Below the pieces are notes generated by a model. That model had not been told where the DNA came from and searched no databases. It saw nothing but the letters and a program-made list of their open reading frames with translations. The position numbers were made by a program, and so were the translations under genes. A stretch of 64,000 bases of DNA from Flavobacterium marginilacus. GTDB lineage: Bacteria > Bacteroidota > Bacteroidia > Flavobacteriales > Flavobacteriaceae. How positions within the stretch are numbered: position 1 is the stretch's first letter; each line of letters begins with the position of its first letter. Location of the stretch: positions 1,364,001-1,428,000 of the forward strand of contig NZ_CP113975.1 of NCBI RefSeq assembly GCF_026870155.1, read 5' to 3'. Below, piece by piece: positions 12,409-57,574 of the stretch.

Positions 12409-13506
12409 ATGAATTATAAAAAAATATACCTTTTATTTTTATTGGTCTGCGGTTCGTCAATTTCTATTGCGCAAAAAAACGCTGAAAATCAGTCATATTT
12501 TGAGTATAGCGGAAGAATCGAAAAATTAGCAGATAATAAAGCGGTGCTGATAGGTGCTGCTGCTGCTGTTTCTTTTGATTTTAGCGGCAACTCATGCGAT
12601 GTTTTACTGCAAAGTTTAGAGAATCATCAAAACTATGTTTCATTGGAACTCGACGGAAACTATATCGGGAGAGTTCGAATTGAGAAAGGGGAAATAAAAA
12701 GCTATCCTGTTAAAGTTTCTAATGGTAAAAAAACGCACCATCTTTCGATTTACAAAGCTACCGAAGCTGCGAACGGAGGGGTTTTATTTGCAGGGACAAC
12801 AGCTAAATTAGTAAAAAGCACAGCATCCAAAAAGAAGAAAAAAATTGAACTGATTGGAGATTCCATTACATGCGGTTTTGGAAACGATGCTTCGGCGATT
12901 CCCTGCGGGAGCGGTGACTGGTACGATCAGCACAATGCGTATTGGGCTTATGGTCCGGTGCTTTCCAGAGCTTTGAATATCGATTTTGTATTGAGTTCTG
13001 TTTCGGGTTACGGGATGTACCGGAACTGGAATGACGAGCATGAAAACGAACCCAATATTCCGGATGTTTATGAAAATCTATATTTAAATAAAGACAGTTC
13101 AAAACCGTATGATTTTGCATTTCAGCCTGATTTGGTTAGTATTTGTTTAGGGACTAATGACCTTTCTGATGGAGACGGAAAAAAAGCAAGACTGCCGTTT
13201 AATGAAGAAAAATATGTTTCCAATTATATCGAATTTATTAAAACGGTTTACAAACATGCTCCTAATGCCCGAATTGTATTATTGACAAGTCCGATGGTTT
13301 CGGGTGATAAAAATGTGACTTTGGTAAAATGTCTGAAAAAAGTAATTCAGGCTTTTGAAAATGATAAAACACACAAGCCAATTACATTATTCGAATTTCA
13401 GCCAATGTCTCCAAAAGGCTGTGGCTATCATCCAGATATTGCTGATGATAAAGTAATGGCTGACCAATTGATTCCTTATTTTAAAAAACTGCTAAATGAA
13501 AAATAA
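12409..13506 (+). CDS. SGNH-fold carbohydrate esterase, CE2-like
   Basis: A 365-residue exported enzyme (signal peptide ending SISIAQ near residue 22). Residues 30-130 form a beta-sandwich like the N-terminal domain of CE2 esterases. The catalytic domain follows with block I ELIGDSITCGFG, block III LGTNDLSDGDG and a block V His in GCGYHPDIADDKV. CE2 members remove acetyl groups from sugars, including acetylated mannans. It overlaps the next esterase gene by 11 bases, so the two are translationally coupled. Given the mannanases downstream, deacetylation of glucomannan or galactoglucomannan is the likely job (inference). The substrate cannot be read from sequence. Confidence 0.82.
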   Translation: MNYKKIYLLFLLVCGSSISIAQKNAENQSYFEYSGRIEKLADNKAVLIGAAAAVSFDFSGNSCDVLLQSLENHQNYVSLELDGNYIGRVRIEKGEIKSYPVKVSNGKKTHHLSIYKATEAANGGVLFAGTTAKLVKSTASKKKKKIELIGDSITCGFGNDASAIPCGSGDWYDQHNAYWAYGPVLSRALNIDFVLSSVSGYGMYRNWNDEHENEPNIPDVYENLYLNKDSSKPYDFAFQPDLVSICLGTNDLSDGDGKKARLPFNEEKYVSNYIEFIKTVYKHAPNARIVLLTSPMVSGDKNVTLVKCLKKVIQAFENDKTHKPITLFEFQPMSPKGCGYHPDIADDKVMADQLIPYFKKLLNEK

Positions 13507-14875
13507 GCTTATTGTCTTTGTCCTTTTCCTGATACTTTCAAATACCGCTTCCGCAAATGTTACGCTTCCGAATATTTTTTCGGATAATATGGTTTTGCAG
13601 CGCAATAGCGAAGTGCTGTTTTGGGGATTTGCCAATCCGCAGGAAGAAGTTGTGATTACGCCAAGCTGGAACAATGAAAGCTATAAAATAAAAGCCAGCA
13701 ATCAGGCAAAATGGGAGATTCTAATTCCGACTCCAAAAGAAGGAGGGCCGTATACTATTACGATAAAAGGATATAATGAAGTAGTACTGAAAAACATTCT
13801 GATTGGTGAAGTCTGGATTTGTTCGGGGCAGTCTAATATGGAAATGAGCGCCAGCTGGGGAATCGAGAATGGCGATGAAGCTGTAAAAAATGCTTCAAAT
13901 CCGAACATAAGACTTTTTTTGGTTCCAAAATTAACGGCTGTAACTCCACAGAATAATATATCAGGAAACTGGACTGAATGCTCACCTGAGACTATGAAAT
14001 ATTTTAGCGCAGTAGCCTATTTTTTTGGAAAACGACTGCAGGAAGAATTGAAGAACGTACCAATTGGTTTAATTTCATCGAACTGGGGAGGAACGCCAGC
14101 AGAAATCTGGATGCCGGAAGAAGTGATTCAAAATGATGCTGTTTTATTGGAATCTGCTAAGACACGTAAAGAAGAAAGTTACGGTCCCAATCAGCCGGGA
14201 CGTGCTTTTAATGCAATGATTTATCCATTGACAAAATTTAAAATCGCTGGGGCATTGTGGTATCAGGGAGAAAGCAATGTGGGATCTGAGGTTTATGATA
14301 AAACGCTTTCTGCTTTAATCACGTCTTGGAGAAAACTATGGAATTATGATTTCCCATTTTACTATGTTCAGATTGCACCTTATAAATATGGAGAAAATCA
14401 TTTCAGCGGAACGATTGTCCGCAATTCACAGCGAAAAGTTTTACAGGAAGTTCCAAATACAGGAATGGCTGTAACCAGTGATATTTCACCTACTGATGAT
14501 ATTCATCCAAAAGATAAAAAATCAGTGGGAATACGCTTGGCGAATCTGGCTTTGGCAAATACTTATAAAACGAACACAGCATTAGTAAACGGACCGCTTT
14601 ATAAAGGAATCACAATCGATAAAAATAAAGTGACAGTTACTTTTGATTATGCCGATGGATTATATTTTAAAGATAAAAAGGCCGAAATGTTTGAAGTTGC
14701 AGGAGCTGATAATGTGTTTTATAAGGCAAATGCAGTTATAAAAAATAATGCTGTAGTACTGCATTCTGATCAGGTAAAAAAACCGGTGAAAGCTCGTTAT
14801 GCTTGGAAAAATACCGATCAGGCAGCACTTTTTAATAAGGCCAATTTGCCTGCTTCGTCTTTTATAACGGAATAA
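13496..14875 (+). CDS. Sialate O-acetylesterase-like carbohydrate esterase
   Basis: A 459-residue exported protein (signal peptide to about residue 20). The block WICSGQSNMEMS contains the predicted catalytic Ser, and GALWYQGESNVG and DDIHPKDK contribute the other conserved positions. It belongs to the family annotated as sialate O-acetylesterase (PF03629 type), many members of which act on plant polysaccharide acetyl esters. It ends with the usual RYAWKN ... NLPASSF segment, so it is complete. Its start lies inside the end of the CE2-like gene. A second deacetylase with a different position preference would make sense for heavily acetylated mannan; this is inference. Confidence 0.85.
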   Translation: MKNKLIVFVLFLILSNTASANVTLPNIFSDNMVLQRNSEVLFWGFANPQEEVVITPSWNNESYKIKASNQAKWEILIPTPKEGGPYTITIKGYNEVVLKNILIGEVWICSGQSNMEMSASWGIENGDEAVKNASNPNIRLFLVPKLTAVTPQNNISGNWTECSPETMKYFSAVAYFFGKRLQEELKNVPIGLISSNWGGTPAEIWMPEEVIQNDAVLLESAKTRKEESYGPNQPGRAFNAMIYPLTKFKIAGALWYQGESNVGSEVYDKTLSALITSWRKLWNYDFPFYYVQIAPYKYGENHFSGTIVRNSQRKVLQEVPNTGMAVTSDISPTDDIHPKDKKSVGIRLANLALANTYKTNTALVNGPLYKGITIDKNKVTVTFDYADGLYFKDKKAEMFEVAGADNVFYKANAVIKNNAVVLHSDQVKKPVKARYAWKNTDQAALFNKANLPASSFITE

Positions 14876-17412: not shown

Positions 17413-17435
17413 GAAATACAGATTAAGACAAAACA

Positions 17436-17472
17436 AAAATCCCTCTTTTCAGTTTCTGGAAAGAGGGATTTT
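17436..17472. terminator. Bidirectional terminator between GH3 and GH2 genes
   Basis: A perfect 13-bp stem AAAATCCCTCTTT / AAAGAGGGATTTT with an 11-base loop lies between two converging genes, 23 bases after one stop and 16 after the other. The A and T ends make it work on both strands. Confidence 0.92.
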
Positions 17473-17488
17473 GAATTTAATGCTATTT

Positions 17489-19915
17489 TTAGTTCGAAGA
17501 ATTAAGAGTTACTGTAGCGGTTTTTAAACCTTTGCTGCTAACTATAAGTTCTATGTTTCCAGCTTCTTTCAGCGATTGAACAAGTACTACTGCTTTTCCG
17601 CTAAAGGCTTTCATTGTAGGCAGATGAAATAATTCTAACGAAGTTGCATCTCCATTGCATGCGGCTCTGTATTTTCCTTTTCCTGTAACTTTAAACTGCA
17701 GCTGATTGACAGCATTCGGGCATGGAATTCCTTTTTCATCTAATATTGAAACCGTAACATAAGACAGATCTTTACCGTCGGCTTTAATTGTTTTTCTGTC
17801 AGGATCAAGTACTATTTTGTAGGCTTTTCCGGCAGTGTGGATTTCTTCTTCTGCGGCTGCTTTGCCATCTTTATCTAATGCAACAACTTTTACCGTTCCA
17901 GGTTCGTACTTAACATCCATCCACATTAAACGGTATCTGTTTTGCGGTGTTGAATTATTCTTTTTTTGAATACCCATACTTTTTCCGTTTACAAAAAGCT
18001 CTGCACTGTCATAATTGGTATACACAAAAACTGGCGTTACCTGACCTTCGCGTCCTTCCCAGTTCCAATGCGGTAAAATGTGCAGGGTTTTCTCGTTTTT
18101 GTTCCAGCGGCTTTTGTACAAATAAAATCTGTCCTTTGGTAATCCTGCTAAATCGTTGATTCCAAAATAGGAACTGCGGGAAGGCCATTTTTCATCATAA
18201 GGAGTCGGTTCTCCCAAATAATCAAAACCTGTCCAGACAAATTCACCTATAACCCAAGGTTTGTCGTCCTGCAAAACAAAATCTTCATCAGGAACATTGG
18301 ACCAGCTGCAGGCTTCTAAATCATAAGACGAACATTGAAAATCTGGATATTGTTTGTCTTTGGCCTGCACTACAGGAAATTTATAAATTCCTCTTGAACT
18401 CACAGTAGATGCTGTTTCAGAACCTAAAATAAATCCCTGCGGAAATTTTTTAAATGCTTCTTCATATAAATGAACGCGGTAATTTAGTCCTGGTATATCC
18501 AGCAACGCTCCAAAACCGGATTCCATTGTTGCTTTTACCTGATCCATACCAACAGTCACGGGTCTTGTAGGATCTTCACGGTGGAAAATGTCCTGTAGCC
18601 ATTTGGCACGTTTTACTCCTTCGTCTCCCCATTGATCTGGAACTTCATTTCCAGAGCTCCACATTACAATTGATGGATGATTTCTTGTAGCATGAACTAA
18701 ATTGACAATATCTTTTTCAGCATAATGTTCGAAAAAACGGTTGTAGCCATTCTCAACTTTTGGCTTTGCCCATTCGTCAAAACTTTCAGCTAAAAACATA
18801 AAACCCATTTCATCACATAATTCTAATTGTTCCAATGAAGGCATATTATGAGAACTGCGGATTGCATTACAGCCCATATCTTTCAGTATCGTTAACTGGC
18901 GGCGCAGAGCAGCCACGTTTACTGCTGTTCCTAAAGGTCCTAAATCATGGTGCAGACAAACGCCTTTGAACTTTCTGATCTCGCCGTTTAGGCTAAATCC
19001 TTTATTAGGCTCATATTTTATGTCACGGATACCGAAGCGGGTCGTAACTTCATCTTTTAATTCACTGCCAACAAACCATTGTGAAACGGCTTTGTACAGA
19101 TAAGGTGTTTCAGGGCTCCATAATTTTGGATTTTCGACCTTGATGTTTTGGTCAAATTCAGTTCCAAAAGGAGTCACAGCTTTATCTGAACTTACTTTTT
19201 GACCATTGGCATCAAAAATAGTGGTAACCAGATAGCCATTATCCCCAGAAGCCTTAGTTTTTATATTTACTTTGGCTTCTTCTTTACTGATAAACGGTGT
19301 CGTGACAGAAGTTCCCCACTGGTCGATGCTTTCCTTGTTTTTTATAATAAGGCTTACTTTTCTGTACAGACCTGCTCCTGGATACCAGCGTGAAGCAAAT
19401 TCTTTATTGGTTAGTTTTACTGCCAAAATATTCTCGCCAGCCGTAATAAAATCAGTTATGTCAAAATAAAAATAGCTGTAACCATACGCCCATTCGCCTA
19501 CTTTTTTTCCGTTTAGGTAAATCTGTGGTTCACTCATGGCACCTTCGAAAAGCAAAATCACTTTTTTACTTTTTTCTGCAGCTGAAATTGTAAATTTATT
19601 TCGATACCAAGCAGATCCTACATGAGGTAAAGCAGCGGTTCTTCCTGTTTTTTCAGAAGCTGTTTTTTCTCCGTTTTGAACAATTGCAACGCTCTGTTTG
19701 TCTATTTCTTTATCAAAAGGACCGTAAATTGCCCAATCATGCGGGACAGTTACTGTTTCCCATTTTGAATCATTGAAATTGTTTTGAAAAGCATTCTCAA
19801 AATCCCCTTTTTGAAATTTCCAGTTGTTATCCAATTCTCTTACGGTACGTACCTGAGAAAAGGAAATTTGTGTAATTGTTAAAAATACAATTAGAATATT
19901 TATCAATTTATTCAT
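17489..19915 (-). CDS. GH2 beta-galactosidase of the galactan locus
   Basis: An 808-residue exported enzyme (signal peptide to about residue 20). It has the GH2 sugar-binding domain (VPHDWAIYGPFDKE, GSAWYRNKF), an immunoglobulin-like domain and the catalytic barrel with acid/base Glu424 in SSGNEVPDQ and nucleophile Glu500 in LGSETAST. A DUF4982-type domain (YTNYDSAELFVNGKSMG) and a further C-terminal beta-sandwich follow. It is last in a SusC, SusD, SusE-like, GH53, GH2 series, the order known for Bacteroides galactan loci. It should release galactose from beta-1,4-galacto-oligosaccharides in the periplasm. Another beta-glycoside specificity is possible but less likely here. Confidence 0.9.
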   Translation of the reverse strand: MNKLINILIVFLTITQISFSQVRTVRELDNNWKFQKGDFENAFQNNFNDSKWETVTVPHDWAIYGPFDKEIDKQSVAIVQNGEKTASEKTGRTAALPHVGSAWYRNKFTISAAEKSKKVILLFEGAMSEPQIYLNGKKVGEWAYGYSYFYFDITDFITAGENILAVKLTNKEFASRWYPGAGLYRKVSLIIKNKESIDQWGTSVTTPFISKEEAKVNIKTKASGDNGYLVTTIFDANGQKVSSDKAVTPFGTEFDQNIKVENPKLWSPETPYLYKAVSQWFVGSELKDEVTTRFGIRDIKYEPNKGFSLNGEIRKFKGVCLHHDLGPLGTAVNVAALRRQLTILKDMGCNAIRSSHNMPSLEQLELCDEMGFMFLAESFDEWAKPKVENGYNRFFEHYAEKDIVNLVHATRNHPSIVMWSSGNEVPDQWGDEGVKRAKWLQDIFHREDPTRPVTVGMDQVKATMESGFGALLDIPGLNYRVHLYEEAFKKFPQGFILGSETASTVSSRGIYKFPVVQAKDKQYPDFQCSSYDLEACSWSNVPDEDFVLQDDKPWVIGEFVWTGFDYLGEPTPYDEKWPSRSSYFGINDLAGLPKDRFYLYKSRWNKNEKTLHILPHWNWEGREGQVTPVFVYTNYDSAELFVNGKSMGIQKKNNSTPQNRYRLMWMDVKYEPGTVKVVALDKDGKAAAEEEIHTAGKAYKIVLDPDRKTIKADGKDLSYVTVSILDEKGIPCPNAVNQLQFKVTGKGKYRAACNGDATSLELFHLPTMKAFSGKAVVLVQSLKEAGNIELIVSSKGLKTATVTLNSSN

Positions 19916-20066
19916 TATCAGTCTGTCTAATTATTTAATAGTATGATGGAAAAAGAGCAGGTAAATTTTTTACTCCCATCGGCATCATAAAATTGATTTT
20001 CTGTGACTTCCATTTGTGGTAATCAGCCAGAATTATTACTGAAGCCATAAACTTCTTCATACTCTT

Positions 20067-21164
20067 TTAATTTAAGCTGAAAACCTGAAAAACAGGTAAT
20101 GCTTTATTTGTAAAATCATATAATGCCTGATTTTCAAATGTTGAACCATCGGTTGCTTGGTTTCCTTTGAACGAAACCCATTCTCCTCCCCAGTAAGCGA
20201 ATCCTATACCGGAATTAGAAGTTTTTACAATATCTTTAATGGCTAATATAAAACTTTTTTGCCCCTCAGGAGTTGCTGGATAACCAGGAACTAATTGATT
20301 GGCCAGGCCCACAATATTATTTGTCCAGTCATTATATTCTAATGTAAAAGGATAAGCTGTTTCGGCTATAAGTACTTTTTTATTGAACTTAGTTCCTAGA
20401 TTATTAATAGTACTTTTTACAACTGCCAAATCTGTACCATGCCAAACAGGATAATAAGAAAGTCCTATATAATCATAGTCAACGGATTTTACTTTATTAA
20501 AAAACCAATCCGTGTCAGAAGCTTTTACTCCTGCATAATGAATCATGATTTTAGTTTTTGGTGCTTTACTGCGAACAGCTGCACTAGCGGTTTTTAACAA
20601 ATCAATACATTGAGCTTCATTATTAATCAAATGTCCTTGTGGCCATAACAATCCAATGTTAATTTCATTCCCAATTTGAATAATATCAGGATTAATTTCT
20701 GTGATTATTGTCGATGTGTAGTTAGCTACTGCTGTTTTCAAATCTGCAAAAGACAAGTTTTTCCATTCTGCCGGAATAGTTTGTGTTCCCGGATCCGCCC
20801 AGGAATCTGAGTAATGAACCGTAATCCAAACTTTTAAACCTGCTTGTTTCACACGAGCTGCCAAAGCTTTTACTTCGGTTAATCCTGAATAACCTCCAGC
20901 TGGATTTTTCCATAAACGGATTCGGATAGTATTACAGCCTGCATTTTTTAAAGTTGTAAGCATATTTTCAGCTTTTCCATTATTGGTAAAAACAGTTCCT
21001 GCAGCTTCAATTTGAGGAAGGGAAGAAATATCAGCTGCTCTAATAAAATCGTCAGTTACAGCTGGTGGATCTACAACGGGCGTTTCTGGAGAATCGCTGC
21101 TTGAGCAAGCAAATTGAATACTTAATAAAGCAGAAAGTGATAATAAGGTTATGATTCTTTTCAT
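20067..21164 (-). CDS. GH53 endo-beta-1,4-galactanase lipoprotein
   Basis: 365 residues from the preferred ATG at 21164. A longer frame opens at 21203, but the internal Met begins a clean lipoprotein signal (SIQFACSSSD), so the first 13 residues are dropped. The enzyme cuts inside beta-1,4-galactan chains. The catalytic acid/base is Glu167 in IQIGNEINIGLLWP and the nucleophile is Glu268 in LIAETAYP; the barrel starts with RAADISSLPQIEAAG, as in other GH53 enzymes. Acidic/Ser residues after the lipid Cys suggest export to the cell surface. It follows the SusE-like gene, with a strong intergenic hairpin between them. Confidence 0.95.
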   Translation of the reverse strand: MKRIITLLSLSALLSIQFACSSSDSPETPVVDPPAVTDDFIRAADISSLPQIEAAGTVFTNNGKAENMLTTLKNAGCNTIRIRLWKNPAGGYSGLTEVKALAARVKQAGLKVWITVHYSDSWADPGTQTIPAEWKNLSFADLKTAVANYTSTIITEINPDIIQIGNEINIGLLWPQGHLINNEAQCIDLLKTASAAVRSKAPKTKIMIHYAGVKASDTDWFFNKVKSVDYDYIGLSYYPVWHGTDLAVVKSTINNLGTKFNKKVLIAETAYPFTLEYNDWTNNIVGLANQLVPGYPATPEGQKSFILAIKDIVKTSNSGIGFAYWGGEWVSFKGNQATDGSTFENQALYDFTNKALPVFQVFSLN

Positions 21165-21186
21165 GTGTTGTTTACTGTTTTTATGT

Positions 21187-21238
21187 AATGAGCATAACCG
21201 CAATTGGTGTTTTTAAACAGCCTGCTGTTATGCTCATT
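21187..21238. repeat. Intercistronic hairpin, 12-bp perfect stem
   Basis: AATGAGCATAAC at 21187-21198 and its exact complement at 21227-21238 enclose 28 bases. It lies between the SusE-like and GH53 genes, read on the minus strand. No U run follows the stem in that direction, so it is more likely an mRNA processing or stability element, or a leaky attenuator, than a full terminator. Confidence 0.7.
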
Positions 21239-21255
21239 TCATAATATTATTAAGT

Positions 21256-22395
21256 TTACTCTAGGGTAATTGTTTTAGCAGCAGCGTTAATTGTTAATTT
21301 ATAGGTACCAGGTGTTCCAACAAATTTAAAATTAGCATCTCCGCTTCCGTCGCTTACTAAATTTGCGTTGATTTTGTAACCCGCATCTGAGTAAGAAGCA
21401 AAATTATTTTTGGTATCCCAAGTGCCAAACACGTGGAAGAATCGGAAAACATCATTTGATAATGTAATAGATGCTGACCAAATATCTGGAGTAGCTTCAG
21501 TAAATTGGATGGTTTTAGCTGCGTCAAAGTTCCACCCGCCCGGTACTGCTCCTCCTACTGCCCAAAGAGAGCTGGAAGCTGTTAATACAATTGTCTTTTT
21601 GGTATTATCTATCGTGATAGTGTAAATTCCAGGAGTTCCAACGAATTTAAAGTTGCTGTCATTGTCTAAAGAGTTTTCTAAACTTGCATCGATAGTATAA
21701 CCTTCACCTTTATAATAGGAATACCCCAAAGCTGATGACCAGTTTCCTGATTCTTGGAAAAATCTAAAGTTTCCATTCGTTAATTTTGCTTTTATCTGTA
21801 CAACATTGTTAGTACATTTCATTTCTCCGGCCGGTTTAAAATTCCAGCCAATATCTGTCAAAGCTTCTCCAACTGCATAAAGTGAAGGGCAGCTGTTTCC
21901 TGCAGCCACAGTTTCAATCCATTTAATAGTAATAACTTTTATTTCGGATAATGTTTCATTAGCTCCAGCTGTACCTGCTGTTGCTCTTAATCTGAAGTAT
22001 ACCTGTCCGGTATTGTTTGGAGTACCATCTGCATTAGTTGTTGCCGGATTATCATCAAGTCCTAAATCTTTGGCAAAATCCAATAATTTAGCAACAGTAA
22101 CTGCTAAATTCTTTTCGCTGGTAGTACCCACAACTTTAAAGCCTGTAAAATCAGCTTTAGTAGCACCCTGCAGTTCATATGTAATATTCGTAGGTACACC
22201 AAAGTCTGCAGATTCCCACATAAATCGATCGGCTACGTTGTCTTTTGTAGCCTGTGATATTAAATAATTGGCTGCAAAAGTATTGGTAAATGCTATACCA
22301 TCAGCATCTGGTTTTGCAGTAAAAATGGGTGAATTATCATCAGAACAAGCATTTAAACTTATAAGTGCTATAAACAGTAAGATTAGTTTTTTCAT
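21256..22395 (-). CDS. SusE/SusF-like surface glycan-binding lipoprotein
   Basis: A 379-residue lipoprotein with signal MKKLILLFIALISLNAC, lipid Cys17 and the acidic SDDN after it typical of surface export in Bacteroidetes. Residues 25-165 resemble the SusE N-terminal domain (ITYELQGATKADFTGFKVVG). Two tandem repeats of about 100 residues follow, each with a YAVG/WAVG ... GWNF start, an FRFF centre and an NFKFVGTPG ... TI end, like the starch-binding modules of SusE/SusF. It is encoded directly after SusD and before GH53, so it should hold galactan at the surface. The binding specificity is inferred from position only. Confidence 0.85.
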   Translation of the reverse strand: MKKLILLFIALISLNACSDDNSPIFTAKPDADGIAFTNTFAANYLISQATKDNVADRFMWESADFGVPTNITYELQGATKADFTGFKVVGTTSEKNLAVTVAKLLDFAKDLGLDDNPATTNADGTPNNTGQVYFRLRATAGTAGANETLSEIKVITIKWIETVAAGNSCPSLYAVGEALTDIGWNFKPAGEMKCTNNVVQIKAKLTNGNFRFFQESGNWSSALGYSYYKGEGYTIDASLENSLDNDSNFKFVGTPGIYTITIDNTKKTIVLTASSSLWAVGGAVPGGWNFDAAKTIQFTEATPDIWSASITLSNDVFRFFHVFGTWDTKNNFASYSDAGYKINANLVSDGSGDANFKFVGTPGTYKLTINAAAKTITLE

Positions 22396-22427
22396 TGTAT
22401 CTATATTTTTGATTTTTTATATCTTTT

Positions 22428-24026: not shown

Positions 24027-24037
24027 ACTGTTTCTTT

Positions 24038-27019: not shown

Positions 27020-27255
27020 AAAATGTAATTTAAATTGGTTAGATTAGTTTTAATAAGTGTTATTTTTTGATACTGGCTAAAAATAAAACCTACTAAATTC
27101 AATGGCTGCAATTACCTCGATTCTATGAGCTTTGATGAGGGTCGATTTCGTTAAATAGGGGTGTGGAATTCATCGCTTTGGGCGGTGAAGTACTAAAAAT
27201 TAATCAAATAGAGAAAAAACAAACAAATAAATTGAGTATAACGCAAAAAAAGTTT

Positions 27256-31311: not shown

Positions 31312-31434
31312 TAGAGTGTATAAAAGTAGTTACTTTCTAATTGTAAATCAAAATATGCAATTAAGTATATGGTACTTTTTCTCCAATGGATTAAAATAAG
31401 CTGCAATCTGGAAAGAAATATAAAGGTAAAATTG

Positions 31435-31517
31435 ACACTAATTTCACAAACTATTGCGTCTGTAGTCCGTGTAATTAATTTTACGAATGAATTTGTGAAA
31501 ATTCGTGAAATTAGTGT
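31435..31517. repeat. Intergenic imperfect hairpin between GH97 and HTCS genes
   Basis: ACACTAATTTCACAAA (31435-31450) pairs with TTCGTGAAATTAGTGT (31502-31517) at 15 of 16 positions, and related words (GAATTTGTGAAA) occur inside. It has no T run after it. It shares the words ATTCGTG and TTAGTGT with the element at 58241-58422. Confidence 0.65.
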
Positions 31518-31535
31518 TTACTAATGATTATTCAG

Positions 31536-38737: not shown

Positions 38738-38739
38738 AA

Positions 38740-42518: not shown

Positions 42519-42797
42519 AATTTATAGTAAAAGTTTTTAATGGTGCTGCTTAGACTGTATTTAGTGTGAATTAAGTCTCAGAGTGTTGTGTTTTTTGAAA
42601 ACTGTTATTCTATATTTATATTAATTTTTTGATAAAATGTTAAAAAAAATATCGTTTTAAAATGATTTATATTTTTTAAGGATATTTTTACATTCAAAAA
42701 CATAAATTCATTTTTCAAAGATAAAGTAATAACATCTTTTGAATTAATATTATTTTATCAAATTTATATCTTATTATTGCAAAAAAATAAATGAATT
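42519..42797. promoter_or_regulatory. Divergent control region of the mannan operon and AraC gene
   Basis: 279 AT-rich bases separate the minus-strand GH26 operon from the plus-strand AraC gene. On the minus strand TATCTTTG (complement at 42716-42723) matches the -7 box TAnnTTTG exactly, which would give a leader of about 190 bases for the GH26 mRNA. No clear -33 TTG partner was found. AraC-family regulators usually bind such divergent regions, but no direct repeat operator is obvious by eye. Confidence 0.4.
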
Positions 42798-43676
42798 ATG
42801 AGCGCTTTTAAAGATTTTCACAGAGAAATAGTTCCACTAGCGGCACAAGACAGTTTTTTGGTTTTTGACAGGATTAAAGATGAGTTTGATTATCCGGTGC
42901 ATTATCATCCCGAGTATGAAATCAATTTTATATTAAACGGAAAAGGAGTAAAACGCGTTGTAGGTGACACTATAGAAGAGATTGATGATGTTGAGCTGGT
43001 GCTGGTAGGGCCGAATTTATATCATGGTTGGGAACAATATAAGTGTAAAAATAAAGATATTCATGAGATAACGATTCAGTTTCATAATGATCTTTTTCAT
43101 GATTTTTTGCTTTCCAGGCGAATTATGACTCCAATTAAAGAGATGTTTAATCGTTCTGTACATGGTATTTTATTTTCAAAACAGGTAGCAGAAATGCTTA
43201 CTCCGCGGTTAATAAAGATATCAAAGCTGGATGGGATGGATTATTTTCTTGAAATCATATCAATTCTCTATGACCTTGCCAACTCTCGTAATCAAAGGCT
43301 TTTGTCTACTTTTACTGTTGAAAATGATACTTTTGAGGAGTATGATAAGATGAAGTTAATCTATGATTATATTCAGAAGAATTTTGCTGAGAAATTATCA
43401 TTGGAAGAGGTTGCCGGTGTTGCCAGTATGACTACTATTTCTTTCAATCGGTTTATAAAAAAACGTACAGGAAAGACATTTGTTAATTATATTAATGATA
43501 TTCGTATTGGTTACGCAGCCAGATGGTTAGTAGAGAAAGATCTCAGTATATCTGAGGTTGCGTTTAAATCTGGGTTTAATAATATTGCAAATTTCAACAG
43601 AAGTTTTAAGTCTTTTAAGAAATGTACTCCCAGTCAGTACCGTGATGATTTCTCAGGATTGAAGCGAATTCTGTAG
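42798..43676 (+). CDS. AraC-family transcriptional regulator of mannan use
   Basis: A 292-residue cytoplasmic regulator. Residues 20-110 form a cupin-like sensor with YPVHYHPEYEINFILNGKGVKRVVGD and GPNLYHGW, which could bind a sugar. The C-terminal 100 residues have two helix-turn-helix units (LSLEEVAGVASMTTISFNRFIKKRTGKTFVNYINDIRI and LSISEVAFKSGFNNIANFNRSFKSFKKCTPSQYR). It is divergent from the mannan operon and upstream of the second SusCD operon, so it could control both. It has no membrane part, so its ligand must be cytoplasmic, for example mannobiose or mannosyl-glucose (inference). Confidence 0.92.
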   Translation: MSAFKDFHREIVPLAAQDSFLVFDRIKDEFDYPVHYHPEYEINFILNGKGVKRVVGDTIEEIDDVELVLVGPNLYHGWEQYKCKNKDIHEITIQFHNDLFHDFLLSRRIMTPIKEMFNRSVHGILFSKQVAEMLTPRLIKISKLDGMDYFLEIISILYDLANSRNQRLLSTFTVENDTFEEYDKMKLIYDYIQKNFAEKLSLEEVAGVASMTTISFNRFIKKRTGKTFVNYINDIRIGYAARWLVEKDLSISEVAFKSGFNNIANFNRSFKSFKKCTPSQYRDDFSGLKRIL

Positions 43677-43732: not shown

Positions 43733-43931
43733 GTTTTTAATAATTATTTATATCGCTTTAATTTTAAGTTTTAAATAATAATAACATAAAAAAATATTGA
43801 CTAAATTTTATTATATGTAATTTTTATTTCCATTTTGAAAATATATTATCATTAAATGATATAATAATATTAATTTAATGTTTACTACTGTTATAAATTT
43901 GTTAATTATAAATCATACTAATTAATACCAA

Positions 43932-47175: not shown

Positions 47176-47186
47176 TACGTATTAAT

Positions 47187-48827
47187 ATGAAAAATATAAT
47201 AAAAAGAAGCAGTGTTGTTGCTATGACATTGATATTGTTGGTCTCATCTTCTTGTTCTCAGGATTTTATAGATGTGCCGGCACAGGGAACACCTACTTTA
47301 ACTAACTATTATGACTCAGATTTAAAACTGGATAATGCAGCTAATGGATTATATGGTCTTGTATGGTTTAATATGAACAAAGCGGGTTATTATGGTATTA
47401 CTGATGTGATTTCTGGTAATATGTATGCTGCTCCGTATAATGATTTTGGTAAATTCACCGATTTGAGTTTTACTAGTACGGCATCCTATATTTCTGATTC
47501 ATGGAGATCATGTTATGGTGCTATTGCAAATTCTAATGCTTTTATCAATGGTCTGCCTACAGGTGTTGGGCCAGAAGTTAGTAAAGAAGCATTAAATAAT
47601 GCATTAGGAGAAGCACATTTTATCAGAGCTTTTTCTTATTTTTTCTTAGTGAGATTATGGGGTAATGTGCCTATTATTGAAAACACTGCTGATTATTCTG
47701 CAAATTTTGTGACTCCGAGTAATCCAGTTGCAGATGTTTATAAATTTATAGAAAATGATTTAAAATTTGCCGCTGCAAATTTGAGAATAAAAGTAAGAGG
47801 TTCTAATTATGCTGCTAATGCGCACGTATCAAGCGGGTCTGCTAAGGCTTTTTTAGCAAAAGTATATTTATATGAGAAAAAGTATGACTTGGCAAAAGCT
47901 ATGGCTTTAGAAGTAATTAATAGCGGAGAGTTTAAATTATTAGGAGGAGATGAATTGCCTACAAAATCGTTTGCAGATTTATTTTTGCAGATGAACAATA
48001 ATAATGAAGAGTCAATCTTTGCATGGCAATGGACAGGGACAGCAACTTATTTTGACGGTAACTTCTCTAATACAACTTTTGCTCCTGAAAATAGATTGGT
48101 AGAAACTACTTATTCTGCTCAGATTGCACCATCTCAGGATTTAATTAATAATGTTTTTGAGGCTGGAGACAGAAGAAGAAGAGAGACCTTTATGCTTTCT
48201 GGGGATTATTATCCTAATTTAACTTATGCTAAGGATCTTAGTGTTGATGCTCCTTATATTTTAGGATATACATTTGATACAACATCAGCAACTTTACCTG
48301 ACGGGAAAACTGCGAATCCTACACTTAATGGAGTTCAAAACTCTGGAGCAGGGCTTAAAAAATATGTAATCGGAAAAGAAAATTTACCTATAACAGGGAA
48401 ATTTAATAAGCCTTTTAATGGAGAAAGCAGTATGAACACGTATCAGATGCGTTATGCTGAGTTATTATTGATTCATGCAGAAGCAGCTATAGGTTCTCAG
48501 ACAGGAAGCACCACAGATGCATTGGCTCTTAAATCTTTCAATGCAGTCCGTAAAAGAGCAGGACTGTCTGCAAAGGCATCAATTACTTTTGATGATGTAT
48601 TCAAAGAAAGACGCGCAGAATTGGCTTGTGAAGGAGATTACTATTTTGATTTGGGACGTTTGCCTTTTGCTAAAGCTAAAGCTATACTAGAGGCGCAAAA
48701 TAGAGGAGATAAAGACAATCCTAAACACATAACGATTACTGCTACAAATCTTTTACTGCCTTATCCAGCAGATGATTTGATTAAAAATCCAAAATTGACA
48801 GAAGTAGCTCCGTATACTTTTAAATAA
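47187..48827 (+). CDS. susD: SusD-family glycan-binding lipoprotein of the mannan locus
   Basis: A 546-residue lipoprotein with signal ending VSSSCSQDF (lipid Cys23). The typical SusD blocks are present: YYDSDLKLDNAANGLYGLVW, GEAHFIRAFSYFFLVRLWGNVPI, GSAKAFLAKVYLYEKKYDLAK, MRYAELLLIHAEAA, FNAVRKRAGL and FKERRAELACEGDYYFDLGR. It is the cell-surface lid of the adjoining SusC channel. Spacing of 11 and 17 bases to its neighbours shows a single operon. Confidence 0.95.
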   Translation: MKNIIKRSSVVAMTLILLVSSSCSQDFIDVPAQGTPTLTNYYDSDLKLDNAANGLYGLVWFNMNKAGYYGITDVISGNMYAAPYNDFGKFTDLSFTSTASYISDSWRSCYGAIANSNAFINGLPTGVGPEVSKEALNNALGEAHFIRAFSYFFLVRLWGNVPIIENTADYSANFVTPSNPVADVYKFIENDLKFAAANLRIKVRGSNYAANAHVSSGSAKAFLAKVYLYEKKYDLAKAMALEVINSGEFKLLGGDELPTKSFADLFLQMNNNNEESIFAWQWTGTATYFDGNFSNTTFAPENRLVETTYSAQIAPSQDLINNVFEAGDRRRRETFMLSGDYYPNLTYAKDLSVDAPYILGYTFDTTSATLPDGKTANPTLNGVQNSGAGLKKYVIGKENLPITGKFNKPFNGESSMNTYQMRYAELLLIHAEAAIGSQTGSTTDALALKSFNAVRKRAGLSAKASITFDDVFKERRAELACEGDYYFDLGRLPFAKAKAILEAQNRGDKDNPKHITITATNLLLPYPADDLIKNPKLTEVAPYTFK

Positions 48828-48844: not shown

Positions 48845-49897
48845 ATGAAAAATATAAAAAATGTTACGTTGACAGCATGTATTGCATTGATGTTCTCTTT
48901 AATGCTTTTTAGTTCATGCTCCGATGATTCTAATACTTCAGACAGTGCCGGTCCTCCAGTTGTAGAATCAGTAATGCCGTCAGGTTATACTGAAGATGGT
49001 GTTATTTTGCCATTAGCTCCAGTTACTAAAGGAGATCCTAAAAGTTATTATATCATCCATGGTAAAGGTTTGCTTACAACGCAGAAAGTGTACTTTAATG
49101 ATTTTGAGACTTATTTTCGTCCAACTTTTGTAACAGATACTGATATTGTTATAATGATTGATGAAAGCACGCCGTATGCTAACGCTTCTAATAAATTAAA
49201 AATAGTTACCAATTACGGAACTGTTCTTTATGATTTTGTTACAGCACCGCCGCCGCCAACTTTTAATTGGTTCAATTCAATAAATGCAGCAGCAGGTGAT
49301 GTAGTTACTATTGATGGAAAGTATTTTTTAAATCCTGTTGTAAAAGTTGGCACGCAGCAAGCAACTATAGTTTCTTCTACGTTGACAGAGATTAAGTTTA
49401 AGATGCCAGCTAATTCTGCTGATAAATTGGTGACAGTTACAAATATTACTGGTACAGCAGCTTCTAGTCTAGCAGTTGGTGCAGCATTGTATGACGATGC
49501 AATACAAGGTGATGCAGGACATTGGACTTGGAGCGGTAACGAGTTTAATACAAATTATACTGTAGATAAAGCCCAAGGAAACGCATCCCTGAAAATAGCT
49601 TTTGGAGGTTGGGATGGTGCTGATTTGAAGTTTAATTCTAGAGATGTTTCAAAATATAAAGCATTTAGAGTTAAGATTAAAAGTACCTCTGCAAATCCTG
49701 ATGCCAAATTGAAATTTGTTTTTGGAGGATGGGCTTATCAAATAGTAAAATCAATAAATACATCATGGACTATTATTGAGATTCCGTTCTCAGAGATTGG
49801 AAATCCTACTACTTTTGATCAATTGACATTTCAAGAAGCCGGAAATTTTGGCGGTAACACCATATTAATGGATGAGATGGGATTTGTGTTAAAATAA
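48845..49897 (+). CDS. IPT/TIG-domain surface glycan-binding lipoprotein
   Basis: A 350-residue lipoprotein (MLFSSCSDDSNTSD, lipid Cys25) with an acidic tether. Two IPT/TIG-like immunoglobulin domains follow, about 38-140 and 145-215 (AGDVVTIDGKYFLNPVVKVG). The C-terminal beta-sandwich (220-350) starts DDAIQGDAGHWTWSG and contains SLKIAFGGWDGADLKF, KLKFVFGGWAYQIVKS and a Gly-Trp-rich face suitable for sugar stacking. It occupies the SusE position. The C-terminal module is probably the mannan-binding part (inference); no enzyme motif is seen. A strong terminator follows. Confidence 0.82.
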   Translation: MKNIKNVTLTACIALMFSLMLFSSCSDDSNTSDSAGPPVVESVMPSGYTEDGVILPLAPVTKGDPKSYYIIHGKGLLTTQKVYFNDFETYFRPTFVTDTDIVIMIDESTPYANASNKLKIVTNYGTVLYDFVTAPPPPTFNWFNSINAAAGDVVTIDGKYFLNPVVKVGTQQATIVSSTLTEIKFKMPANSADKLVTVTNITGTAASSLAVGAALYDDAIQGDAGHWTWSGNEFNTNYTVDKAQGNASLKIAFGGWDGADLKFNSRDVSKYKAFRVKIKSTSANPDAKLKFVFGGWAYQIVKSINTSWTIIEIPFSEIGNPTTFDQLTFQEAGNFGGNTILMDEMGFVLK

Positions 49898-49957: not shown

Positions 49958-50061
49958 CAGCAGTTCTTATGACTTTAAATTTGAAATACTCAAATTCACT
50001 ATTACATTGTTTTTAAGTGTATTTTGAAAAAAAAGTATCAATATACTTGACTTCGATTCAT

Positions 50062-50069
50062 TATTTTTG
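50062..50069 (+). promoter_or_regulatory. Probable -7 box of the GH2-GH27-GH5 operon
   Basis: TATTTTTG matches TAnnTTTG exactly, 31 bases before the GH2 start and after a strong terminator, so a promoter is expected here. A TTG at 50047 is closer than the usual -33 spacing. Confidence 0.4.
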
Positions 50070-50100
50070 AGAGTTAAACTTTTGACAAACCTTTTTATAA

Positions 50101-52977: not shown

Positions 52978-53124
52978 TAGAATGTGGGCGTGCCCTCACC
53001 AAAAAAATGGAGAACAAGATCATATAGTTTTAAAAAAAAACCGCAAAATCTGCAAGATCTGCGTGCCAAACAAAAAAATAAACATCTGTACAAGAATACC
53101 ACTGCAATAACAAAATATAAAAAA

Positions 53125-54363
53125 ATGAAAAAATCACTTCTCTGCTTACTTTTAAACTGCATTGCAATTCAAGGCTTCTCCCAAGGAAATGTCTATAAAC
53201 AAGGAACCGGAAAATTCGAAGGTTTGGCCATGACACCGCCAATGGGCTGGAACTCCTGGAATACTTTTGAAACTAACATCGATGAAAAACTCATAAAAGA
53301 AACCGCAGATATTATGGTTTCTACCGGAATGGCAGCTGCGGGTTACAACTACATTGTTCTTGACGATGGCTGGATGACAAAGGAAAGAGATAAAGATGGA
53401 AATTTAGTTCCCGACCCAATAAAATTCCCAAGCGGAATGAAAGCTTTAATCGAGTATGTACACTCTAAAGGTTTGAAGTTTGGTTTGTACAATTGCGCGG
53501 GAACACATACTTGCGCAGGTTATCCGGGAACACGCGGTTATGAGTACCAAGATGCTCGTTTTTATGCCAGTTTAGGAATCGATTTTTTGAAATATGATTG
53601 GTGTAATACGGCAGGAATTAATTCTACAGAAGCATATACAACAATGAGCAACGCACTTAAAACCGCTGGAAGACCAATTGTTTTCAGTCTTTGCGAATGG
53701 GGTGATACAAAACCTTGGGAGTGGGGAAAACCAATTGGAAACTTGTGGAGAATTTCGGGAGATATTTATCCTTGTTTTGATTGTGAATTCCACCACGAAG
53801 AAGGAAATTGGTCATCATGGGGATTCATGAAAATTGCCGAAATGCGTAAAGATATTCGTAAATATTCAGGACCAGATCATTGGAATGATTTTGATATGAT
53901 GGAAGTAGGCGACGGAATGACCAATACCGAGGACAAAACACATTTTGCGATGTGGTGTATGATGGCTTCTCCTTTGATTGCGGGAAATGATTTCAGAAAA
54001 ATGTCAAAAGAAACTTTGGCGATTCTAACCAATAAAGAACTAATTACGGTCAATCAGGATAAATTAGGAATCCAGGGATTCAAACTTTCTGCGGAAGACG
54101 GACTGGAAGTTTGGGTAAAACCATTAGCTGATGGAAATTGGGCTGTTACTTTCTTAAATAGAACCGACGCTCTTAAAAAAATCAATTTCGACTGGAAAAA
54201 AAATTCAATCAAAGATGCCGATTTTGGCTTTGAAGCCGATTTTAATAAAACAATATTTAAAATCAAAGATCTTTGGAAAAACAAAGAAGCGGGAACTACT
54301 AAGAAGAATTTTACTGCTGATATAGCTTCTCACGATGTAATTACACTTCGATTAATTCCTTAA
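53125..54363 (+). CDS. GH27 alpha-galactosidase
   Basis: 412 residues from ATG 53125. A longer frame opens at 52984, but its first 47 residues are basic, unlike the family, and overlap a decayed intergenic repeat, while the internal Met starts a signal peptide ending QGFSQ. The barrel has TPPMGWNSWNTFE, YIVLDDGWM, nucleophile Asp158 in FLKYDWCN, and acid/base Asp257 in WNDFDMMEVG. GH27 enzymes usually read NDPDML here, so Phe replaces the Pro. A C-terminal Greek-key domain completes it. It removes alpha-1,6-galactose from galactomannan. It is followed after 2 bases by GH5. Confidence 0.92.
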   Translation: MKKSLLCLLLNCIAIQGFSQGNVYKQGTGKFEGLAMTPPMGWNSWNTFETNIDEKLIKETADIMVSTGMAAAGYNYIVLDDGWMTKERDKDGNLVPDPIKFPSGMKALIEYVHSKGLKFGLYNCAGTHTCAGYPGTRGYEYQDARFYASLGIDFLKYDWCNTAGINSTEAYTTMSNALKTAGRPIVFSLCEWGDTKPWEWGKPIGNLWRISGDIYPCFDCEFHHEEGNWSSWGFMKIAEMRKDIRKYSGPDHWNDFDMMEVGDGMTNTEDKTHFAMWCMMASPLIAGNDFRKMSKETLAILTNKELITVNQDKLGIQGFKLSAEDGLEVWVKPLADGNWAVTFLNRTDALKKINFDWKKNSIKDADFGFEADFNKTIFKIKDLWKNKEAGTTKKNFTADIASHDVITLRLIP

Positions 54364-54365
54364 AA

Positions 54366-55340: not shown

Positions 55341-55354
55341 ATTTAAAAAAACAT

Positions 55355-55388
55355 AAAAACCAACTTTTCAACGAGTTGGTTTTTTTTT
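55355..55388 (+). terminator. Terminator of the GH2-GH27-GH5 operon
   Basis: The stem AAAAACCAAC / GTTGGTTTTT with a 10-base loop and further Ts starts 15 bases after the GH5 stop. Confidence 0.9.
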
Positions 55389-55459
55389 GTGTTCCAAAAA
55401 GAACTATATTGCGCCTCTTTTTTGGCAGCATTGGACGCATCTACATTGATAGTAACTAT

Positions 55460-57574
55460 ATGAAATTAACATTAAAATTAACGACTTACTTTAAATTGGT
55501 ACTGTTAATCATTAGTATTTGTTCGCTTTTTATATTGTTATTTCTTTCCCTTTATTTATATACAGTACAGCAGGAAAATGATGTTTTCAAAGCTAATTCA
55601 AATCAATATAAAACAGAGATAAACCGATTATTTGATTTTAATTCGAAAACCCAGATAGTTACCATAAATGATCTTACTTATTGGGATGCTTTAGTCAATT
55701 TTACAAAATCGAAAGACACACTTTGGTTTAAAAAATATATTGCAAATGAATTTCCTACTTATGAGGTAGATTATATTTCGATTTATGGTCTCGATAAAAA
55801 GTTTATTACAAGCATTGCAAAGCCTGATTTTAAATCCAAAGATTTTATAGCAAAACAGGCTATGAGAGTTTTGTATAAAACCAAGTTTTCCAGATTTTAC
55901 ATGAGAGTTCCTGAGGGTATAGTCGAGGTGCTTGGAGGAACAATTCATGCTTCAAATGATCCTAGAAAAATTAAAACGAAACCAGCCGGATATATGTTCA
56001 TGGCTCGGTTATTAGATAAGGAATATTTTAAAAATTTAGAAGATATCTGCAGTTCTAATGTCCGGCTCTTAAATAATGAAGATGTCAGTCTTATTGGAGA
56101 TAAAAAAATGACATCATTAATACAGCTTAAAGATCATAAAAATTATACAGTTGGGAAATTATTGTTTGAGAGATCTTCTTATCTTAATTTTGAAAGAACC
56201 AAAGAACTGCTGCTGATTATTGTCATTACTACATTGATAGGACTTATAGCCGCGGTTTATTATTCCAGAAAATGGGTTTACAGACCATTGCGTTTAGTAA
56301 CAAATATTTTAGAGACCGACAGAGAGATTTCAATTAGTCTGTTAAAAAGGGAGCCAGGGGAATTTGGACATATCGGAAATTTGTTTGAAGATCATAGAAA
56401 GAATCGGTTTCAATTGGAAAAATCCAAACAGAAAGCTGAAGAAAGTGATAAACTAAAGTCGACTTTCCTTGCTAATTTATCTCATGAAATTAGAACACCG
56501 ATGAATGCTATTATCGGGTTTTCAGATTTGCTTTTAAATGAAAATTTAAGCGAAGATCTGAAAATGAAATATTTGAAAATCATCAATAGCAGCGGCAAAA
56601 GTTTGGTGTCTATTATTGAAGATTTAATTGAAATGTCAAAGATTGATGCCAAACTGATAATGCCCAATTATAAAGGGCTGGATATTGAAAAATGCATTAA
56701 GGAACTGTATAATACACTAAAAGTGACAATACCTGAGGATAAAAGCATTAATTTTTATATTAGCGAAAGCACTGAGAAATTAGAAAATAATATTTTAACG
56801 GATGAAGTAAAGCTGAAGCAGATAATTGTTAACCTGCTTACAAATGCAATAAAATTTACAGACAGCGGACATGTTGCCTTTGGTTATTCGATAGATAAAG
56901 AGGAACAGCTGATAGAGTTTAGGGTTGAAGATACAGGTATTGGAATCAGTAAAAATGATCTGAAAGTTGTTTTTGACCGTTTTCGAAGAGTTGAAGATGA
57001 TTATTCAATATCACTTAGCGGATTAGGATTAGGCTTATCTATTTCCAAGGCTTATGTTGAAATGCTTGGCGGTGAAATTCATGTTGAATCAGTTTATGGA
57101 GGAGGTTCTGTTTTTAAATTTACAATTCCATTGATTTACGAAGAATATATTGAGGAAAATAAAGATCCCGATGAAGAATGCCTGAATAAAAACTCTGATT
57201 CTAAAAATATTTTAGTAGCTGAAGATGATAATATCAATTTTTTGTTGTTAAAAACAATATTGGAATTAAAAAAACACTCTGTTATAAGAGCAAGAAACGG
57301 TCAGGAAGTAGTAGATATCAGTAGATCAAATCCGGCGATAGATTTGATTTTTATGGATATTAAAATGCCGGTTTTAGATGGTTATGAGGCTTTTGAAATA
57401 ATTAAAAAAGAGAATCCAGATCTGATTGTAATTGCTCAGACAGCTCATTCTTCATCAGAAGTGAAAGAAAGAATAATGAAAGCCGGTTTTTCAGCTTATA
57501 TTACTAAACCTTTAGATAAAGAAAAAATCTATGAAATAATTACCAAGGTGTTTCAAAACAATTCAGCTAATTAG
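55460..57574 (+). CDS. Hybrid histidine kinase with CHASE4-like sensor and receiver
   Basis: 704 residues from ATG 55460; an upstream in-frame ATG at 55376 lies inside the terminator and gives an unlikely N-terminus. A membrane segment (8-30), a CHASE4-like periplasmic sensor (about 35-245, with NDLTYWDALVNF) and a second membrane segment (about 250-272) precede HisKA with His342 in FLANLSHEIRTPMNAI. The ATPase domain (LLTNAIKFTD, GLGLGLSISKAY) and a C-terminal receiver with Asp633 in LIFMDIKMPVLDG follow. No DNA-binding domain is attached, so the signal must pass to a separate protein. It stands next to the mannan locus but may not belong to it. Confidence 0.9.
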   Translation: MKLTLKLTTYFKLVLLIISICSLFILLFLSLYLYTVQQENDVFKANSNQYKTEINRLFDFNSKTQIVTINDLTYWDALVNFTKSKDTLWFKKYIANEFPTYEVDYISIYGLDKKFITSIAKPDFKSKDFIAKQAMRVLYKTKFSRFYMRVPEGIVEVLGGTIHASNDPRKIKTKPAGYMFMARLLDKEYFKNLEDICSSNVRLLNNEDVSLIGDKKMTSLIQLKDHKNYTVGKLLFERSSYLNFERTKELLLIIVITTLIGLIAAVYYSRKWVYRPLRLVTNILETDREISISLLKREPGEFGHIGNLFEDHRKNRFQLEKSKQKAEESDKLKSTFLANLSHEIRTPMNAIIGFSDLLLNENLSEDLKMKYLKIINSSGKSLVSIIEDLIEMSKIDAKLIMPNYKGLDIEKCIKELYNTLKVTIPEDKSINFYISESTEKLENNILTDEVKLKQIIVNLLTNAIKFTDSGHVAFGYSIDKEEQLIEFRVEDTGIGISKNDLKVVFDRFRRVEDDYSISLSGLGLGLSISKAYVEMLGGEIHVESVYGGGSVFKFTIPLIYEEYIEENKDPDEECLNKNSDSKNILVAEDDNINFLLLKTILELKKHSVIRARNGQEVVDISRSNPAIDLIFMDIKMPVLDGYEAFEIIKKENPDLIVIAQTAHSSSEVKERIMKAGFSAYITKPLDKEKIYEIITKVFQNNSAN

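Follow-up and report, generated by a model that had tools for sequence, protein, structure and literature searches.

A probable acetylated galactoglucomannan locus of Flavobacterium marginilacus, split by a galactan block and carrying a coupled GH2-GH27 pair

Flavobacterium marginilacus carries, on contig NZ_CP113975.1, an island of polysaccharide-degradation genes that occupies positions 12409 to 57574 of the 64,000-nucleotide stretch analysed here (the window, positions 1,364,001 to 1,428,000 of the contig; all coordinates below are those of the window). It is proposed, with fair confidence, that the island is an acetylated galactoglucomannan locus conserved across much of Flavobacterium and governed as one regulon, into which a galactan polysaccharide utilization locus (PUL) has been inserted and to which a GH2 beta-galactosidase, GH2b, has been added as an extension. 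The gene families, the conserved gene order, the polarity of the insertion, a shared promoter signature and the coupling of GH2b to the alpha-galactosidase GH27 were computed from the sequences.

Gene content of the island

The island holds 26 open reading frames (ORFs) of at least 120 amino acids, 25 of which were scanned against Pfam; the one omitted lies antisense within the GH3 gene (15367-15960). A first-pass annotation, made from the sequence alone, had listed esterases, GH3, GH53, GH2, GH97, GH26, GH27, GH130, AGE, GPH, SusCD pairs, an HTCS, an AraC regulator and a kinase, and Pfam finds every one of them at the place given. The SusE-like (21256), CBM4_9 (36479) and TIG-domain (48845) proteins were not in that list. 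The genes are as follows.

12409..13506, +, CE2 acetyl esterase; PF17996 (CE2_N) and PF13472 above cut-off, NCBIfam AxeC2 118.6 bits, below its cut-off of 500
13496..14875, +, SASA-family acetylesterase; PF03629, 68.7 bits
15124..17412, +, GH3 beta-glucosidase, BglX type; PF00933/PF01915, NCBIfam BglX 736 against a cut-off of 666
17489..19915, -, GH2 beta-galactosidase of the galactan block; Pfam, NCBIfam GalB 893.7, slightly below the cut-off of 900
20067..21203, -, GH53 endo-beta-1,4-galactanase; PF07745, 307.8 bits, lipoprotein signal by eye
21256..22395, -, SusE-like protein of the galactan block; PF14292
22428..24026, -, SusD of the galactan block; PF07980
24038..27019, -, SusC of the galactan block (SusC1); Pfam
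27256..31311, -, HTCS regulator of the galactan block; Reg_prop, Y_Y_Y, HisKA, HATPase, receiver, HTH_18
31536..33524, -, GH97 of the retaining alpha-galactosidase type; PDB 3a24, 4.1e-197
33524..34819, -, GH5_7 exo-beta-mannosidase-like enzyme (Man5A type); PDB 1uuq, 2.2e-91, without a Pfam match
35228..36457, -, GH26a endo-mannanase; PF02156, 6q78 GH26C 5.2e-142, lipoprotein by eye, presumed surface
36479..37501, -, CBM4_9 protein; PF02018
37547..38737, -, AGE epimerase, cellobiose 2-epimerase-like; PF07221, EpiA 376 bits, below the cut-off of 800
38740..39933, -, GH130 of the 4-O-beta-mannosyl-glucose phosphorylase type; 3was, 3.1e-172
39957..41348, -, GPH/MFS_2 inner-membrane carrier; PF13347
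41373..42518, -, GH26b, mannobiose-producing type by its relatives, presumed periplasmic; 4zxo 1.4e-94, then CjMan26C
42798..43676, +, AraC-family regulator, candidate activator of the regulon; PF12833
43990..47175, +, SusC2, SusC of the mannan locus; Pfam
47187..48827, +, SusD of the mannan locus; Pfam
48845..49897, +, TIG-domain lipoprotein, presumed surface glycan-binding protein; PF01833
50101..52977, +, GH2b, GH2 beta-galactosidase; NCBIfam GalA 1135 against a cut-off of 900
52984..54363, +, GH27 alpha-galactosidase; PF16499
54366..55340, +, GH5_2 endoglucanase-like enzyme; PDB 5i2u 2.1e-117, endoglucanases/cellulases
55376..57574, +, hybrid histidine kinase; CHASE4-HisKA-HATPase-receiver

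The two GH5 enzymes do belong to different subfamilies, as annotated at first pass, one being a Man5A-type exo-mannosidase (1uuq) and the other of the endoglucanase type (5i2u); we take them to be GH5_7 (33524-34819) and GH5_2 (54366-55340). The two GH26 proteins are distinct as well, GH26a being nearest a PDB chain named GH26C and GH26b nearest 4zxo, presumably BoMan26A, and then CjMan26C. The GH97 alignment with 3a24 spans nearly the full length, and an Asp of 3a24 that is Gly in 5e1q, presumably a nucleophile mutant, is Asp in the window protein. The listed GTG start of GH27 gives 47 extra residues ahead of a likely Met and signal peptide, and the true start probably lies downstream, inside the listed ORF. 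The CHASE4 hybrid kinase has no DNA-binding domain and follows GH5_2 here and in six fetched relatives; it is restricted to part of the clade, with relatives adjoining GH5_2 at 77-91% identity in five other fetched genomes (G094, G112, G030, G151 and G179) and at 100% in Flavobacterium sp. HJJ. Outside the island, at 7492-9470, an EcoO109I-like restriction endonuclease and a C5 cytosine methylase lie on opposite strands with overlapping ends, and the pair adjoins biotin carboxylase and carboxyltransferase genes.

The conserved mannan locus and its promoter signature

A scan of genome contigs with the GH5_7 protein yielded 80 named loci from Flavobacterium and near kin, the best 80 of 203 relatives; the counts that follow speak for close relatives. 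Seventy-seven of them are readable beyond GH5_7/GH97, the other three running into a contig end, and in 75 of the 77 the next gene of the window's set is GH3, leaving aside an aldo/keto reductase (AKR) that stands before GH3 in 71 of these; genes foreign to the window can also intervene there, such as a ROK-family gene in one locus (L186). GH3, SASA and CE2 are all detected in 72 of the 80. Since the mannan gene order recurs in the 80 fetched loci, to the extent of each contig, the clustering is not due to chance, and CE2-SASA-GH3 belongs with the mannan and SusCD operons to a single conserved locus. Given the conserved linkage of GH3 to GH97/GH5_7, the esterases and GH3 are an old part of it, and an acetylated (galacto)glucomannan substrate is therefore supported. 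Such a substrate had been preferred over plain mannan at first pass, a preference backed by the enzymes present, by the way in which CE2-SASA-GH3 stays linked to the mannan operon and by the promoter signature described below. The features expected of a beta-mannan/galactoglucomannan PUL are present: a SusC/SusD pair and a GH26 mannanase in one cluster, an operon of epimerase, mannosylglucose-phosphorylase-type GH130 and GPH carrier and, by homology, the alpha-galactosidases GH27 and GH97 with a GH5_2-like backbone glucanase.

The SusCD pair of the mannan locus (43990-48827; compared over stretches L119-L165 and L266-L271) comes in two types, with SusC either more than 70% or about 46-55% identical to that of the window. 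The types interchange at least nine times on the locus tree (44 typed rows) with the flanking enzymes constant, a pattern of importer swapping.

A composite signature, WTGA-N6-ANTATY-N22-TANNTTTG, the last part of which we take to be the Bacteroidota -7 box, precedes CE2, GH26b, SusC2 and GH2b.

12330..12375, +, signature at the CE2 promoter; exact match, found in 58 of 64 CE2 promoters of named relatives
42716..42761, -, signature at the GH26b promoter; exact match, found in 72 of 77 relatives
43835..43901, +, two tandem elements at the SusC2 promoter; the nearer one is the exact signature, found in 68 of 68 relatives
50024..50069, +, signature at the GH2b promoter; exact match

When one mismatch is allowed, the window has four matches, all exact (0.24 expected), and four of the five matches in this genome are at these promoters. 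Across 12 whole genomes with the locus, 36 of 41 matches fall at locus promoters, some CE2 sites being assigned by distance and sequence type, and a reversed control gives six matches; 20 genomes without a GH5_7 match, mostly smaller, contain eight. The CE2, GH26b and SusC2 signatures are all present in 52 of the 55 loci where all three are readable, and no signature was seen in the named loci ahead of ten other gene positions (SASA, GH3, GH97, GH5_7, GH26a, CBM, AGE, GH130, GPH and AraC). The 6/22 spacing returns 198 matches, against 29 summed across 90 other spacings and a maximum of 14 in any one.

An unbiased search for 8-mers shared among three promoter classes gave AT-rich words only; the element was then spotted by eye and refined on relatives' CE2 promoters, and the composite pattern came last. 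A loose pattern with three mismatches was dropped as performing at chance level (14 matches, 12.87 expected). A weight matrix was trained solely on relatives' CE2 promoters (63 loci, 15 distinct sites); over the whole window CE2 scores highest (17.3), followed by SusC2 (16.5), which still exceeds the best of ten Markov nulls (15.4). The third match lies inside GH26b, and GH2b comes fourth (13.7), within the null range. Among the relatives it recovers 10 of 14 GH2b promoter rows (null 0), two of the rows (L161 and L162) repeating the genomes of L124 and L121.

The GH26b and SusC2 copies of the signature flank the AraC gene, which is detected in 76 of the 80 loci; in the mannan PUL of Muricauda, too, an AraC-type regulator is expressed (PMC9860051). 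Because of this position, its conservation and the Muricauda parallel, the AraC protein is the best candidate binder, and it likely binds the signature and activates the regulon. One (galacto)glucomannan regulon, with four promoters here, is part of the explanation that we hold as a whole to be probable.

Several observations weigh against this reading of the signature. Among the relatives, the CE2 matrix recovered few SusC2 promoters (6 of 41 with at least 12 bits, null 3; 4 of 68, null 0) and not one GH26b promoter (0 of 34 and 0 of 77); both classes are found only by the looser composite pattern. The simple element WTTTGA-N6-AGTATC is not locus-specific, with 8 of 29 matches at the locus in six genomes; five of six other sites inspected lie within ORFs and were taken as chance. 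The exact signature was not found in the CE2 stretch of F. aquicola. Furthermore, the composite pattern was drawn after viewing the window promoters and some of the relatives' CE2, SusC2 and GH26b sites; the window is thus no independent test and the relatives only partly one, shared descent contributes too, and the agreement amounts to strong consistency rather than a blind test. No description of the signature was found in the literature, where few searches were aimed at it and its novelty was only lightly tested.

The galactan block and the GH2b-GH27 pair

GH53, GH2, SusCD and HTCS stand together at 17489-31311, as in a pectic galactan PUL. This block splits the conserved locus and is present, besides this genome, in 2 of the 77 readable named relatives, Flavobacterium sp. 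HJJ (near-identical) and F. aquicola. In F. aquicola the block lies between GH3-AKR, which is retained there, and GH97; this genome and HJJ no longer have the AKR at the junction, the closest protein elsewhere in this genome being 64% identical. The galactan block is an inserted guest in the mannan locus, and its loss elsewhere rather than gain here is disfavoured by the AKR retained in F. aquicola and by the narrow distribution. The GH53 of F. aquicola at this site is of another type, 34% identical to that of the window, as if an ancestral block had contained both types and each lineage had lost one.

SusC1 is 100% and 93% identical in HJJ and F. aquicola, respectively, both of which are outside the sample of 397 other Flavobacterium genomes; within that sample, where at most two candidates were scored per genome, one genome has a relative at 78% and the next reaches 56%. 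The 78% relative sits in a galactan locus with two GH53 genes and a GH2. In a sample of 150 genomes no other case of GH53 near GH5_7 was found, although many of these are drafts, in which a case could be missed at a contig break. This genome has a second galactan locus at 4.96 Mb (4950000-4969999), with a GH53 pair, GH2, galactokinase, GalT, a GalE-like epimerase, an aldose epimerase, an SSF symporter and a GntR-type regulator; the block GH2 (17489) has a paralogue of about 81% identity there. No SusCD pair was found in it in a search with the window SusC and SusD, nine of the 14 listed ORFs being annotated.

The WTGA-N6-ANTATY element is absent from the intergenic stretches of the galactan block (17412-17489, 27019-27256 and 31311-31536), and in the relatives' block neither HTCS (0 of 2) nor SusC1 (0 of 2) is preceded by the signature. 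A joint galactan-mannan regulon was rejected on this missing element, and the block is probably controlled separately, by its own HTCS. The first-pass view of an island built for both polymers is not supported, as the block is an insertion, found in 2 of 77 readable named relatives and without shared promoter elements. The refutation named at first pass, that no relative at all would keep the two blocks adjacent, is narrowly escaped, since two close relatives do; at 2 of 77 loci the adjacency is not conserved as it would be in a single joint galactan-galactoglucomannan PUL. No paper on a "hybrid PUL" combining galactan and mannan was found in the literature, and the family names GalA and GalB led to no useful papers.

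Two GH2 genes had been counted at first pass without being assigned to either part. The count is right, and the gene at 50101, the clade-specific GH2b, goes to the mannan part by position and promoter. Orthologues with at least 67% identity occur in 16 of 398 Flavobacterium genomes, this one included (each genome having no more than two candidates scored in the rows considered), and GH2b is directly beside GH27 in 15 of the 16, the sixteenth lying at a contig end. Beyond the genus, a class-wide sample of 295 genomes yields a single match, a protein at 53%. The pairing persists even where the genes are detached: F. alvei has a GH2b-GH27 pair with a GH63/MGH1-like neighbour and no other mannan-locus gene in the 20 kb read, and in genome G370 GH2b-GH27-GH5_2 adjoins a SusCD pair of low similarity (31% and 25%), the 20 kb read there containing no AraC gene. 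The promoter element is kept at the same distance in F. alvei and is absent in G370. In 13 of 19 rows, this genome included, the GH2b element is followed 22 bases on by a TANNNTTG-like box. A beta-galactosidase is thereby tied, by position and promoter, to the alpha-galactosidase GH27, as would be expected of a locus for beta-galactoglucomannan (beta-GGM). On the locus tree GH2b is present in 17 of 49 rows with three changes, against a shuffle mean of about 14; the tree mixes 36 stretches drawn irrespective of GH2b with others picked partly for it, and 17 of 49 is not a frequency. The tree does not include L275, which had too few genes, L153, three repeats (L161, L162 and L265) and two fragments (L156 and L270). 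In four loci (L160, L163, L164 and L267) GH2b comes immediately after AraC, the intervening SusCD-TIG genes being missing.

Other observations count against the assignment of GH2b to mannan. The inner spacing of its promoter element is altered in 2 of the 19 rows and the element is absent in 4; apart from those two rows, this genome and the near-identical HJJ, the box below it reads TANNNTTG instead of the exact form. GH2 proteins with 52-58% identity to GH2b are present in 74 genomes. The surroundings of 13 were read (11 with 20 kb and two with 1.5 kb on each side), all of them without a GH27 nearby, and the wider family therefore has no tie to mannan. The specificity of GH2b could also be for any terminal beta-galactose. 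A single in-frame stop occurs in 10 of those 74 relatives, which suggests either that the gene is decaying where it lies outside the mannan locus or that the sequences contain errors.

Substrate and comparison with known systems

According to two plant studies, a mannan of eudicot primary walls, defined as beta-GGM in 2022, has an alternating glucose-mannose backbone with beta-galactose on alpha-galactose (PMC9614514); the side-chain link is beta-(1,2), and the polymer was reported in 2023 to be likely eudicot-specific (PMC10735049). It was dismantled with CjMan26A or a GH5 mannanase, a GH35 beta-galactosidase, GH27, GH3 and the GH5 beta-mannosidase of C. mixtus (PMC9614514), and the island has the same families with GH2 replacing GH35. 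A beta-galactosidase coupled to an alpha-galactosidase under a mannan promoter is what such branches require, and the GH2b-GH27 coupling thus suggests beta-galactose-(1,2)-alpha-galactose side chains as in eudicot beta-GGM. Rather tentatively, we propose that the locus of this clade is dedicated to eudicot beta-GGM, its GH2-GH27 pair stripping these side chains under an AraC-linked operator shared with deacetylation, import and backbone cleavage. In print, we found no locus for the bacterial catabolism of beta-galactoglucomannan; the papers that use the term are, judged by title or abstract, mostly plant work, and it is also applied to acetylated galactoglucomannan from spruce in a feeding trial on salmon.

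In the proposed pathway, whose substrates and cell locations are predicted throughout, the surface GH26 lipoprotein and GH5_2 would cut the mannose/glucose backbone, and the TIG protein and SusCD would bind and import the products. In the periplasm, CE2 and SASA would remove acetyl groups, GH2b the beta-galactose caps and GH27 and GH97 the alpha-galactose, while GH3 may trim glucose, GH5_7 mannose, and GH26b may yield mannobiose. Disaccharides would enter via the GPH carrier, the AGE epimerase converting mannosyl-mannose to mannosyl-glucose for phosphorolysis by GH130. The AraC protein is predicted to bind TGA-N6-ANTATY, 22 bp upstream of the putative Bacteroidota -7 box; the GH2 at 50101 would extend the locus to eudicot beta-galactoglucomannan with beta-galactose-(1,2)-alpha-galactose branches, and the galactan block would answer to its own HTCS.

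The other readings differ in what GH2b and the galactan block are for. It is doubtful that the true substrate is a softwood- or konjac-type acetylated glucomannan with single alpha-galactose branches and that GH2b is incidental, even though the esterases suit acetylated mannan, secondary-wall acetylated galactoglucomannan is described with occasional alpha-galactose (PMC9614514, in the part available), and most relatives have the core without GH2b, which only 4 of the 36 AraC-side stretches drawn irrespective of it carry (L119, L121, L122 and L124); the clustering of GH2b on the locus tree, with its partly GH2b-chosen rows, and the promoter element kept in most GH2b rows tell against it. We also think it unlikely that GH2b has been recruited as a general beta-galactosidase to obtain galactose from mixed wall debris such as galactan or xyloglucan fragments. 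Fifteen of 16 orthologues are coupled to GH27, detached ones included, and most have the mannan promoter element in front; for us this outweighs the 52-58% relatives in 74 genomes and their 13 surroundings free of GH27. GH2 beta-galactosidases are versatile enzymes, which speaks for such a general role.

Both galactan and galactoglucomannan occur in eudicot primary walls, and a single functional hemicellulose/pectin island whose linked galactan and galactoglucomannan genes are used together would also account for the adjoining of the blocks in three genomes; the island would then supply the importer for the second galactan locus, where no SusCD was found. This is quite improbable, given that the block is absent in 75 of 77 readable relatives, shares no promoter element with the mannan genes and has its own HTCS. 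We therefore keep to a galactoglucomannan locus with a galactan guest. If this holds, an enzyme set and regulon matched to beta-GGM side chains would reveal consumers of the polymer and supply analytical tools, the composite signature would open a mannan regulon of Flavobacterium to direct testing, and the locus would show that a PUL can be split by another PUL with its shared promoter elements kept.

The galactan block has, we assume, the same gene content (GH53, GH2, SusCD, HTCS) as the Bacteroides-type galactan PUL BT4667-BT4673, from which it differs in being nested in a mannan locus and in having a SusC that is rare in the genus sample. The mannan operon presumably shares the GPH carrier and gene order of the Bacteroides fragilis mannobiose pathway. 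The same route of disaccharide epimerisation and phosphorolysis is described for that GH26-epimerase-GH130 pathway, and no side-chain enzymes are named alongside it in the available text, unlike in the window (PMC13276840). BoManPUL of Bacteroides ovatus shares two GH26 enzymes, an alpha-galactosidase and two glycan-binding proteins; its alpha-galactosidase is a GH36, and no GH2 or GH5 is named in the openings of the abstracts (PMC5217682, PMC5094572). The neighbouring PUL 7 and PUL 8 of Segatella copri share GH26, GH130, epimerase, GH5_7 and an esterase, and the GH5_7 of one is co-induced with the other, but they have a CE7 esterase and a GH26-GH5_4 fusion and, in the text available, neither a galactan block nor a GH2b counterpart (PMC12704710).

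The closest system is the PUL of Muricauda sp. MAR_2010_75, for which tested activities indicate galactoglucomannan and which shares several GH26 enzymes, a GH5 endoglucanase, GH27, GH130, an epimerase, SusCD, a predicted esterase and an AraC-type regulator; the GH26C chain (6q78) that best matches GH26a is presumably a Muricauda enzyme (PMC9860051). GH97 is often associated with GH26 clusters according to the same source, and the Muricauda GH5 is a GH5_26, unlike those of the window. The words GH2, GH5_7, galactan and promoter do not appear in the main text of that paper, and a GH2 beta-galactosidase, a galactan insertion and the signature are thus not described there. The core locus belongs to this known beta-mannan/galactoglucomannan kind, and what is new is GH2b as its proposed extension, together with the promoter signature and the insertion of a galactan block within the locus.

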